From positions 1-64,000 of the forward strand of contig DASRDP010000104.1 in assembly GCA_035652535.1 (NCBI GenBank): DNA of 64,000 bases. The letters are read 5' to 3'. The notes under the pieces were generated by a model. The model saw only the letters and a program-made list of their open reading frames with translations, was not told where the DNA came from and ran no database searches. Made by a program: the position numbers and the translations under genes. The stretch comes from Chloroflexota bacterium. Lineage in GTDB: Bacteria; Chloroflexota; UBA6077; SHYK01. The stretch's first letter is position 1; the number at the start of each line of letters is the position of its first letter. This document shows positions 21,004 through 44,414 of this stretch, in pieces.

Positions 21004-22395
21004 TCACCAGCTCGCGAGGGCCTCAATCGCATCGGCGACGAATTGATCCTCATTCGGCGCGATGGTTCGCACGTCCAGCAGCACGCGATCGTGGGCGACC
21101 CGGGCGACAATGGGCGGGGACCAGTGGCGAAGCCATTCGGCCACCTGTGCACACGAGCGCGTCGGGTGTTCGAGGGCCACAGCGAAGCTGGGAAGCACCT
21201 CGCCGGGAAGAGATCCGCCGCCAACCGCGGCCGTTGAGTCCGCCACGTGGGCAAACGGACTCCCCGCCGCCCGCGCGATCGCCGAGGCGCGAGCGCCGAG
21301 CTCGTCCGGCGTGGCTGAGATCATTCGCCACACGGGGATGGCCGTTTCCGCTTCCTGGCGCACGTAGTGCGCCAGGGTGGCACGGAGCCCGGCTAGCGTC
21401 ACCTTGTCGGGCCGCAGCGCCCGCGTGAGGGGGTGCCGGGTGATGGCGGCGATGGCTTGCTCGCCGCCGACGAGGATGCCGGCCTGCGGCCCGCCGAGCA
21501 GCTTGTCTCCGCTGAAGCACACCACGTCGGCGCCCGCGCGCACGCTTTCCTGCGGCATGGGCTCGTGACCCAGTCCAAATCGCTCGGTGGGGAGAAGGCT
21601 CCCGCTCCCCAAATCGTCCACAAGGAGGCGTCCGTGGCGGTGCGCGATTGCCGCCAGATCCTCGATGCTTGCGCTGTGGGTGAATCCAACGACCCGGAAG
21701 TTGCTGGCGTGAACCCGGAGGAGGACGGCTGTCTCGTCCGTGAGGGCGGCGGCGTAGTCCTCCGCGTAGGTCCGATTGGTGGTGCCGACCTCGACGAGGC
21801 GAGCGCCGCTCTGGCGCAAGACGTCGGGGATCCGAAATCCGCCGCCAATCTCTACGAGCTGCCCGCGCGAGATGACAACCTCTCGGCCCGCGGCGAGCGC
21901 AGCCAGCGCGAGGAGCACCGCGCTGGCGTTGTTGTTGACGACCAATGCGGCTTCGGCGCCGGTCAGGGAGCAGAGGAGGTCCGACACGTGGCCGTGCCGG
22001 GAGCCCCGCGCCCCGCGTTGGAGATCGAACTCGAGCGAGCTGTACCCCTGCGCGAGACGCTCCATGGCGCGAATCGCCGCCGCGCTAAGCGGCGCCCGCC
22101 CCAGGTTGGTGTGGAGGATAATGCCGGTCGCATTGACGACCGGTCGCAGACTCGGCTCGTCGCCCCGCGCGAGCCGTGCGCTGGCATTGGCGAGGAGCGT
22201 CTCCGGACTCGGCGGCTCGCCGGTGGCGCGCTCCCGAGAGTCGGCCACGGCCGACCGGATCGCGTCAACGACGGTGGCGCGAGGGAACTCCTGGAGGAGT
22301 CGGCGCGCAGTCTCGGTCTCCAGCAGTTGGCCGATGCTGGGGAGCGAACGACGGGCGTCCTCACCCGTGCCGTCGCGTGTACCGACGTCTGCCAC
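21004..22395 (-). CDS. selA: L-seryl-tRNA(Sec) selenium transferase SelA
   Basis: A 463-residue PLP enzyme that converts Ser-tRNA(Sec) to Sec-tRNA(Sec) using selenophosphate. Characteristic stretches are VVNATGIILHTNLGRAPLS, VVNNNASAVLLAL, SRGQLVEIGGGFRIPD, VGTTNRTYAEDY and DLGSGSLLP. The PLP lysine is in CFSGDKLLGGPQAG. The start is GTG, with GGAGGG immediately upstream. With selB at 13288 it indicates that this organism makes selenoproteins. selC and selD were not seen in the window. Confidence 0.93.
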   Translation of the reverse strand: MADVGTRDGTGEDARRSLPSIGQLLETETARRLLQEFPRATVVDAIRSAVADSRERATGEPPSPETLLANASARLARGDEPSLRPVVNATGIILHTNLGRAPLSAAAIRAMERLAQGYSSLEFDLQRGARGSRHGHVSDLLCSLTGAEAALVVNNNASAVLLALAALAAGREVVISRGQLVEIGGGFRIPDVLRQSGARLVEVGTTNRTYAEDYAAALTDETAVLLRVHASNFRVVGFTHSASIEDLAAIAHRHGRLLVDDLGSGSLLPTERFGLGHEPMPQESVRAGADVVCFSGDKLLGGPQAGILVGGEQAIAAITRHPLTRALRPDKVTLAGLRATLAHYVRQEAETAIPVWRMISATPDELGARASAIARAAGSPFAHVADSTAAVGGGSLPGEVLPSFAVALEHPTRSCAQVAEWLRHWSPPIVARVAHDRVLLDVRTIAPNEDQFVADAIEALASW

Positions 22396-27610: not shown

Positions 27611-27970
27611 TCAGGAGATCGGCTGCGCAACCGGCCGCTCCCTGGCGTTCGCCGAGCCCGCCGGACGCGCATCGGCCTCGCATGGATCATCATCGGGGAC
27701 GCTCATCGGGCTCGGGCGACGCCAGCACGCGCGCGCGGCGGACATGCATCGAATCTGCTCGTCGGCGGTGAGGGGCGGGGTCCCCATGAGGCAGACGATT
27801 TGGTACAGAAGACGGCAGCCATCGTCGCCGGGCTCTTCGGGTCCCGACCACCGCTCGCGGTAGTGAACGCACGCGCCCTTGTGGCGCCGCCAGTTCGGGT
27901 TGTCCTGGATCGTGTCGGTCGCCTCGCAGCGGAGTTTCGGCATTCTACCACACGGTATTTCGGCGCTCAT
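27611..27970 (-). CDS. Cys-rich protein, third gene of the XRE-DUF2851 operon
   Basis: A 119-residue hydrophilic protein with eight Cys at positions 7, 15, 34, 52, 60, 75, 82 and 97. The core IQDNPNWRRHKGACVHYRE and CRLLYQIVCLMGTPP looks conserved in design, while the last 35 residues look disordered. The ATG at 27970 overlaps the stop of the DUF2851 gene in ATGA, which fixes the start and ties the two genes. The Cys pattern suggests metal binding or an iron-sulfur cluster, but I recognise no family. An ATG at 27943 is a less likely alternative start. Confidence 0.65.
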   Translation of the reverse strand: MSAEIPCGRMPKLRCEATDTIQDNPNWRRHKGACVHYRERWSGPEEPGDDGCRLLYQIVCLMGTPPLTADEQIRCMSAARACWRRPSPMSVPDDDPCEADARPAGSANARERPVAQPIS

Positions 27971-29307
27971 CCGGTCGCCAGGCGGCCACCGCCAGCGGGA
28001 CACGCCTCGCACGCGCGAGCGTCACACCAGCCCCGGTAGATCGCAATCAAACCCTGCTGCCGGACCGCGGTCATGCGCACGACGCGCGCATGGGGACCGA
28101 GGATCTGGCTCGCCATGTGGCGCGTGATCTGGTTGCTCGCGAGGGGCGCATGGGCGAGGAGCGCGTCCGTCGCCGCCGCGGCGAGCGCCTCATCGCCGGA
28201 TCGGCGAGCTGTCGCCCCGACCCAGGGCAGGAGGACGTTCACGACGATGTCCGCCGCCCGCTGCCGTCCGATGAGCGCGCCAGGGCGCGCGAGGGGACGC
28301 GCGAAATCCGCGTGCGCCCGCCAGTAGTCGCCCTCGCCGGTCCGAAGGAGGAGGGCGTCGAGCCCGGCCGCGGCCTTCCCGGGCGCGCGCTCTGTCAGCA
28401 ATGCGCGGACGTGCCGGTCGAGCGGCCACCGAGCGACGTCCGCCGCGAGAGCGGCCGCGGCCGCGACCCGGCGCGCCGGGTGATTGACGGGCCGGACGCC
28501 CACCCACCGCCACCCCAGCCCCCGCCTGGGTCCGGAGCGCCGCGCCTCGGCCCACGCGCGCTCGATAGCTCGCGCGTAGGCATCGGCGCCGACGCCGACG
28601 CCGCGCTGCGAGGGAAGGAGGCCCGCTTCACCGAAGAGCAGCGCATCCAACAGCAACGGATCGCACCGCGCGGTGAACTCCGCTTCGTGGACGCCGATGC
28701 GGTCGGCCAGGAGCCGAAAGGGGGAAGAATTCGCGGAGTATCCCAGCGCCCCGAGCACGCCCGCCCACAGAGCCTGTTCCTCGCCGACGATAGCGATGTC
28801 CGCCTCCAGTCTTGCGCTCTTGGCCTCGATGCGAGCCCGCCCAGCACGGTCCAGGAGTTCAGCGGCCTCGGCAGGGGACAGGCAGGCGTGGACCGCTACG
28901 GGCGCCGCGCCAGACTGCCAGCGCCCAAGCTCCGCACGCAGCCACCCGGCGGGATACTGATCGGCGAGAGCCACCTCGGGAATCCCGCGCCCGTTCGCCG
29001 TGACCGCGCCCTGGCGCGCGTCGAGATGGAGCACGACGTGGAGCACCGTGCCCCCATAAACAGGGTCAGCGCCGTGCCCGTGCTGAACCCAGCCGCCCGA
29101 CCGCGTGTGGACCTCGACGTCTCCGCGCTCGACGCGGCCATCGATGGTAACCACCGCGCCCCGAAAGTCCGGGCCCCAGCTCCCATACCGCCGCCCCGGA
29201 TAGATCACGTGAACCTGCTGACCATCGCGAGCGCACAGCGAGCGGCCAACCTGGCGCTGCCAAAGCCAGGCGACAAACGCCTCCGGCGCGCGGAGCAGAA
29301 CCGTCAC
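27967..29307 (-). CDS. DUF2851 family protein
   Basis: A 446-residue protein of a widespread family without assigned function. Diagnostic parts are SWGPDFRGAVVTIDG, RGDVEVHTRSGGWVQHGH, GGTVLHVVLHLD and the C-terminal ASNQITRHMASQILG followed by GWCDARACEACPAG. The order P-D, about 15 residues, then E-V-H recalls the active-site layout of PD-(D/E)xK nucleases with K replaced by H, but that is only an idea. GTG 29307 overlaps the XRE gene stop in GTGA. It is the middle gene of a three-gene operon. Confidence 0.8.
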   Translation of the reverse strand: MTVLLRAPEAFVAWLWQRQVGRSLCARDGQQVHVIYPGRRYGSWGPDFRGAVVTIDGRVERGDVEVHTRSGGWVQHGHGADPVYGGTVLHVVLHLDARQGAVTANGRGIPEVALADQYPAGWLRAELGRWQSGAAPVAVHACLSPAEAAELLDRAGRARIEAKSARLEADIAIVGEEQALWAGVLGALGYSANSSPFRLLADRIGVHEAEFTARCDPLLLDALLFGEAGLLPSQRGVGVGADAYARAIERAWAEARRSGPRRGLGWRWVGVRPVNHPARRVAAAAALAADVARWPLDRHVRALLTERAPGKAAAGLDALLLRTGEGDYWRAHADFARPLARPGALIGRQRAADIVVNVLLPWVGATARRSGDEALAAAATDALLAHAPLASNQITRHMASQILGPHARVVRMTAVRQQGLIAIYRGWCDARACEACPAGGGRLATG

Positions 29308-29564
29308 GACGGCGGCCCTTCGCCGCCGATCGGGGGCTCGTCTGGCCGCGCCAGGTCGCCGTAGGAGACCCCCGCGCGCTCGGCCACGATGTCCAGGATC
29401 CGGACCGATGCGCCCCGCGGCGCATACAGCCCCGTCTCCCAGTCGCTGACCGTCTGCTGACGCACGCCAAGCTGCTTCGCGAATTCCTGCTGCGAGAGCC
29501 TCAGCGAGCGGCGCAGTCTGCGCACGGTCTCCGCCCGCCACGTTCGCCCGAGATGGCGACCCAT
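29304..29564 (-). CDS. XRE-family regulator, first gene of the DUF2851 operon
   Basis: An 86-residue DNA-binding protein. The helix-turn-helix spans about residues 22-48 (LSQQEFAKQLGVRQQTVSDWE), followed by two more helices of the Cro/C1 fold and a short Pro-rich tail. The ATG lies 6 bases after a TATACT box (29576-29571) with no Shine-Dalgarno, so the transcript is probably leaderless. A palindrome of ACACGG half-sites overlaps this box, suggesting that the protein represses its own operon. Its stop overlaps the start of the DUF2851 gene. Confidence 0.85.
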   Translation of the reverse strand: MGRHLGRTWRAETVRRLRRSLRLSQQEFAKQLGVRQQTVSDWETGLYAPRGASVRILDIVAERAGVSYGDLARPDEPPIGGEGPPS

Positions 29565-29570
29565 GGCGGG

Positions 29571-29596
29571 AGTATACACGGAACCGTGTAACACGG
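29571..29596. promoter_or_regulatory. Leaderless -10 box with overlapping palindromic operator
   Basis: On the minus strand TATACT (29576-29571) stands 6 bases before the XRE gene ATG. Overlapping and just upstream are TACACGG (29575-29581), CCGTGTA (29584-29590) and ACACGG (29591-29596). The first two form a 16-bp palindrome with centre AA, and the last two form a second palindrome, CCGTGT-A-ACACGG. Occupation would hide the -10 box. The divergent oxidoreductase gene (start 29655) could also be affected. Confidence 0.65.
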
Positions 29597-44059: not shown

Positions 44060-44414
44060 TGGTGGAGACGGGGGGGAATCGAACCCCCCGTCCAGAGCGA
44101 GTCGATCGGCGATGTACTCCAGGCGTAGTCGACGCTTTAACTCCTCGCTCTAGGCCCCCCGTCGACCGGGTTCCATCGAGCCAGTCGGCCTTGGCTTACT
44201 CGCGCCCCACGCCGACGGCGGGTCGCGCAGCACTTCGACTTATCGGCGCCCTATTTCGGCCCGCCGAAGTGAGGCCGAAGAGGACGGTCGCTGCTTACGC
44301 AGCGGCAGCGTATGCGTAGTCGCCAGTTACTGGCTTGCCCCCTGTTTTTCGAGTCGAGAGCGAACTCGGCCTGCAATCGCCTAATCTCCTCCCCTGTCGA
44401 GACCGAGCGTCCCC
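44060..44414 (-). ncRNA. ssrA: Transfer-messenger RNA (tmRNA)
   Basis: A 355-base tmRNA, which frees stalled ribosomes and tags the nascent protein. The 5' end GGGGACG pairs with the 3' CGTCTCC, followed by an encoded ACCA. The T arm GGGGGGTTCGATTCCCCCC is typical, and GGTCTCGACAGGGG matches the tRNA-like 5' part. The tag frame at 44324-44295 reads GDYAYAAAA and stops with TAA; the resume codon is my inference. smpB, the protein partner, is upstream in the same direction, and a terminator follows at 44057. Confidence 0.92.

Follow-up and report, generated by a model that had tools for sequence, protein, structure and literature searches.

The compact operon analysed here, which runs leftward in a 64,000-nucleotide stretch of a Chloroflexota genome (hereafter the window), is probably an autoregulated accessory unit of DNA repair whose central gene, a member of the DUF2851 family, seems to encode a metal nuclease. 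In relatives, the operator of its XRE-type regulator also lies on mutL and mutS promoters, which suggests that DUF2851 helps DNA repair rather than phage defence. A role in nucleic-acid processing, one of two that the first-pass annotation had offered, thus receives strong support from a regulon that includes mutL, mutS, dcm and other DNA methylase genes.

The three genes have exactly the coordinates and lengths first annotated for them (Table 1), and they are joined by overlaps of GTGA between XRE and DUF2851 (29304-29307) and of ATGA between DUF2851 and the gene for a Cys-rich protein (27967-27970). The palindromic operator described ahead of the unit was also confirmed. The chance expectation of TACACGGTTCCGTGTA in the window is 0.00, and in a scan of the 4.45-Mb genome the only perfect copy of TACACGNNNNCGTGTA was the operon's own. 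No good -35 box was found beside the predicted -10 box of this promoter. The ATG of the XRE gene lies about 7 nt past the TATACT box, and because it is so near, the XRE mRNA is probably leaderless.

Table 1. Features of the XRE-DUF2851 operon and its control region (window positions).
Feature	Position	Strand	Details
XRE/Cro-type HTH gene	29304-29564	-	86 aa; HTH_3 E = 5.1e-11 (Pfam)
DUF2851 gene	27967-29307	-	446 aa, GTG start; PF11013 match
Cys-rich protein gene	27611-27970	-	119 aa; no Pfam family
Operator palindrome TACACGGTTCCGTGTA	29575-29590	-	TACACG-N4-CGTGTA kept across phylum
Predicted -10 box TATACT	29571-29576	-	Predicted from sequence; overlaps right half of operator
DUF2851 putative active site: E9, D47 (GPDF), E65-x-H67 (GDVEVH), H76-x-H78 (HGH)	29074-29283	-	
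DUF2851 C-terminal C428-x4-C433-x2-C436	28000-28026	-	With C142, candidate Zn or Fe-S site

The XRE protein is without a sensor domain, and its recognition helix, RQQTVSDWETG, follows a subfamily pattern, RQQT(V/I)S(E/D)WETG, that is almost invariant. We examined gene order in 61 DUF2851 neighbourhoods of Chloroflexota genomes (that of the window and 60 that were fetched) and found a same-strand XRE gene of this one subfamily upstream of DUF2851, mostly directly, in three families of the window's own class (f1, f7 and f9; f-numbers label families and G-numbers genomes) and in ten of a sister class (f37, f41, f47, f49, f58, f63, f64, f70, f76 and f77). An XRE gene is not found beside the majority of the phylum's DUF2851 genes, a point against the repair reading. 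A related XRE subfamily (83-101 bits; families f26, f45 and f56), found with other neighbours in genomes without DUF2851 (e.g. G039, G050, G082, G113 and G204; L160-L170), was set aside.

The pairing of XRE with DUF2851, together with the operator, is conserved far beyond close relatives, in at least 12 families of two classes, so that the lack of conservation which would have told against the first-pass annotation was not found. The core pair is XRE and DUF2851. Relatives of the Cys-rich protein occur only within its own order, in families f1, f7 and f4, and we therefore regard it as a local, lineage-limited addition outside the core unit. Its reported eight cysteines were counted correctly, but only five of these positions are conserved among the six known members (one of the five in 5/6), within the core motif NPNW-RH-GAC...YRERW...LLYQI-CL...C...CW. 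Nothing matched this protein in Pfam, PADLOC or PHROG searches.

Other genes recur around the pair. In many sister-class genomes groES-groEL lie divergently upstream of XRE, and in several others tsaD lies convergently downstream of DUF2851 (L085, L086, L091, L094, L096, L120, L292, L296 and L299 for the two arrangements together). DUF72 and DUF488 genes or their remnants adjoin XRE or separate it from DUF2851 (L151/L089 in G176, L293 in G663, L096/L183 in G267 and L146/L215 in G169), which suggests an older XRE-DUF72-DUF488-DUF2851 operon.

The operator is kept before XRE in relatives from many families. We scanned 301 genomes of the phylum, counting as XRE-positive the 25 with an XRE match of at least 93 bits, and found a perfect operator in 31: 17 of the 25 XRE-positive genomes vs 14 of the 276 others (Fisher 8e-14). 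When sites were classed by the gene starting downstream, each of the 23 perfect sites of the XRE-positive group preceded XRE/DUF2851 (15), mutL (4; G183, G239, G253 and G176, the last with a small HTH gene in between), mutS (2; G218 and G311) or the C5-cytosine methylase gene dcm (2; G274, followed by vsr, and G288, followed by a gene for an EcoO109I-type enzyme). Five of the mutL and mutS sites in these 25 genomes lie within 60 nt of the gene and the sixth, in G176, is 359 nt upstream of mutL; for 50 mutL/mutS genes, chance would place 0.0002 perfect sites within 60 nt. DUF2851 has an operator of its own where XRE is not adjacent (G169) or is farther off (G176, G183 and G267). The sites fetched from the remaining genomes preceded none of the genes tested, the one in G201 standing before a NotI/D12 pair. 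In the class of G239, 175 of 393 genomes carry a perfect site. A few of the 40 site stretches fetched from that class precede other genes, proportions among these 40 not being unbiased because they were taken mainly from multi-site genomes. Pfam confirmed the MutL, MutS, C5 and N6/N4 methylase, Vsr, EcoO109I-type, NotI-type, DUF72 and DUF488 products.

The position of the operator within promoters is highly regular. In 14/14 sister-class mutL cases, from eight families (f47, f63, f64, f139, f140, f145, f146 and f148), the arrangement is TTGACA-N3-TACACG-N4-CGTG-TAxxxT, such that the 17-bp spacer of a TTGACA/TATAAT promoter of the sigma-70 type, which matches the consensus at 10-12 of 12 positions, is taken up exactly by the operator. 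Identical spacer geometry was found at a DUF72 gene (G663), at N6/N4 methylase genes (G616, G654 and G663) and at several DUF2851 genes. Ahead of mutS in f70 the operator goes with weaker -35 boxes, and in f77 its place is immediately upstream of the dcm -35 box. An operator between the -35 and -10 boxes would mean repression by occlusion, and from this spacer position and from the co-occurrence of XRE and operator we infer that XRE binds the operator and represses.

The mechanism we propose is that XRE would bind TACACG-N4-CGTGTA inside the promoter, block RNA polymerase and so hold the operon low, and that DUF2851 would be a chromosomal, probably metal-dependent DNA-cutting enzyme working beside mismatch repair. 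In relatives, a single repressor site would serve mutL, mutS, DUF72 and DNA methylase genes, and because they have this site in common all products of the regulon would be made under one control. In the window's own genome, the regulon would have shrunk to the window operon and the lineage-specific Cys-rich protein would have been gained. No perfect operator other than the operon's was found there, and a search allowing two mismatches gave 93 matches vs 162 for a reversed-pattern control, fewer than the control and hence uninformative. With no second perfect site in the genome, its mutL and mutS are therefore not controlled through this operator, so that the link to mutL and mutS comes from the sister class, and XRE appears to serve its own operon only.

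The DUF2851 protein of the window is a full-length member of PF11013 (158.8 bits against a gathering cut-off of 25, E = 2.5e-46, model positions 1-366 of 375), a family that it resembles in this respect and from whose other members in Bacteroidota, Chloroflexota, Thermomicrobium and Akkermansia it differs in its linkage to a dedicated XRE and, within its order, to the Cys-rich protein. As first annotated, it contains GPDF and GDVEVH and belongs to a family with no assigned function; a literature search returned no published function for DUF2851 and one passing mention only. Residues E9, D47, E65, H67, H76 and H78 are invariant in 56/56 sequences, and these acids and histidines fit a metal-dependent nuclease. 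The cysteines are nearly as constant (C142 in 55/56, C428 in 56/56, C433 in 50/56 and C436 in 55/56), and the motif RQQGL...C-x4-C-x2-C near the C-terminus may bind Zn or Fe-S. Some members of the PD-(D/E)xK superfamily carry Fe-S, and the C-terminal cysteine trio recalls them.

We modelled the fold with AlphaFold2, leaving four rows from plasmid records out of the alignment, and obtained confident models, with a pLDDT of 93.6 over the full length and of 96 over residues 1-135. DSSP assigned to the model helices at 9-17 and 72-75, the latter very short, and strands at 31-36, 48-55, 58-69 and 87-94. The N-domain order can be read as the alpha-beta-beta-beta-alpha-beta core of PD-(D/E)xK enzymes (MutH, Vsr, restriction enzymes, Cas4/AddB), with D47 of the GPD motif at the start of strand 2, E65 and H67 of E-x-H in strand 3 and a glutamate in helix 1. 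DUF2851 differs from that superfamily in that His67 takes the place of the lysine in 56/56 sequences, in two extra invariant histidines (HGH), in the very short second helix and in the lack of significant Foldseek or Vsr-profile similarity. Foldseek searches with the whole protein and with the N-domain gave no significant match in the PDB or a viral library, the best PDB match being 6eg7 (BbvCI; E = 0.24, probability 0.08). Residues and strand order are compatible with the PD-(D/E)xK-like site with His for Lys proposed in the first-pass annotation, but no significant PDB match backs such a fold, and we therefore regard DUF2851 as probably a metal-dependent nuclease whose fold assignment is uncertain. 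Homology to Vsr, suggested by PD...FWH-x-H vs PD...W--HGH, was rejected (hhalign probability 0.2 percent over 7 columns).

Lack of a significant fold match would also suit an enzyme of another DNA or RNA pathway, such as RNA processing or nucleotide metabolism, that shares its regulator with mutL through a broad growth or stress regulon. This is unlikely but deserves weighing, as groESL and tsaD are among the neighbours of XRE, and DUF2851 is flanked by dapB and signal peptidase genes, not by repair genes, in two annotated records from Bacteroidota, which thus show no repair theme. A broad regulon is nevertheless hard to reconcile with only one to five perfect sites per genome, or with the restriction of these sites, in XRE-positive genomes of the phylum, to DNA-processing genes and XRE/DUF2851, and no perfect site lies ahead of groESL or tsaD among the sites classified.

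The methylase sites raise a different alternative, which we judge distinctly improbable: XRE might be a controller of the restriction-modification (R-M) type with a methylation regulon, and DUF2851 a modification-dependent or restriction-associated nuclease. The operator does precede dcm in f77 genomes, N6/N4 methylase genes in G520, G616, G654 and G663, and the NotI and D12 methylase pair in G201, and like R-M controller (C) proteins the XRE protein is small, has an autoregulatory palindrome in its promoter and shares its operator with several R-M genes. It differs from them in being chromosomal and paired with DUF2851 and in having its site also on mutL and mutS. Furthermore, the methylase sites belong to differing, scattered systems, whereas those at XRE-DUF2851, mutL and mutS are kept across families or genera, and R-M genes are absent from the DUF2851 neighbourhoods in the gene maps examined. 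The operator stands ahead of several unrelated R-M methylase genes of the C5 and N6/N4 types (L201, L202, L289, L290, L294 and L302) and of the NotI and D12 pair (L214), which looks as though an operator of the host had been taken over by R-M systems.

The tight gene coupling, the XRE repressor and the nuclease-like residues had also led to the proposal of an anti-phage defence unit composed of a repressor, a nuclease effector and a metal-binding partner, and this claim did not withstand the distribution of DUF2851. The gene is chromosomal, occurs in 23 of the 25 class genomes and in 118 of the 301 phylum genomes, and is nearly always single-copy, since multiple matches in a genome are mostly two fragments of a single gene. 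Other carriers are Bacteroidota and Thermomicrobium, and one paper lists Akkermansia. It had no match in PHROG, PADLOC or viral contigs. The few matches in phage and plasmid collections were weak and covered half the length; they came from faecal 'phage' records without annotation and from replicons classed as non-mobilizable, of which several are very large. The XRE protein showed only a generic HTH similarity in PADLOC, with a weak match to the restriction-modification model 'Control_protein' (E = 2e-4). Being chromosomal, near-universal in the class, single-copy and without phage or defence matches, and lying in housekeeping-type neighbourhoods (e.g. near groEL and tsaD), DUF2851 looks like an inherited housekeeping-type gene and not part of a defence island, and a defence function is therefore very unlikely. 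A pair of XRE antitoxin and DUF2851 toxin is scarcely credible: the genes overlap and XRE is weakly similar to antitoxin HTH models, but most DUF2851 genes are without the XRE, the XRE site lies on mutL and mutS in other genomes, and DUF2851 is long and widely conserved. In one genome (G020, L083) DUF2851 is split into overlapping reading-frame pieces, a possible pseudogene or assembly error.

The preferred reading, of an accessory unit of DNA repair, also agrees with gene content. A mutL gene is present in 115 of the 118 genomes with DUF2851 vs 138 of the 183 without it (Fisher 4e-8, in a test that ignores phylogeny), and the three DUF2851 genomes without mutL are drafts at most 89 percent complete. 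We infer that DUF2851 acts in mismatch or damaged-base repair. Replacement by DUF2851 of a MutL lacking its endonuclease was not supported, as MutL in DUF2851 genomes keeps the endonuclease motif DQHA; because MutL retains this nicking motif and no missing mismatch-repair step is evident, DUF2851 would be an accessory and not a substitute. The DUF72 member of the regulon (TM1631 type), likewise of unknown function, has been predicted to act as an endonuclease in DNA repair (Konc et al. 2013, PMC3828134); it resembles DUF2851 in predicted role but is a TIM barrel with no known relation to it.

More tentatively, DUF2851 might constitute an unrecognised family of mismatch or damage nucleases that combines an E/D/E-x-H/H-x-H site with a four-Cys metal centre and works with MutS and MutL in Chloroflexota, Bacteroidota and Verrucomicrobiota, XRE being a dedicated mismatch-repair repressor. 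Our literature search found no account of an HTH repressor dedicated to mutS or mutL. If this proposal is true, a specific repressor governs the mismatch-repair genes of some bacteria and thereby possibly their mutation rate. The shared operator groups DUF2851 with mismatch-repair and DNA methylation genes and so makes its function directly testable.

Elsewhere in the window, a 463-aa open frame (21004-22395, minus strand) resembles SelA (selenocysteine synthase) as judged by eye. The RNA genes of the window are a single tRNA (Gln) and a tmRNA (44060-44414, minus strand) with the tag GDYAYAAAA.
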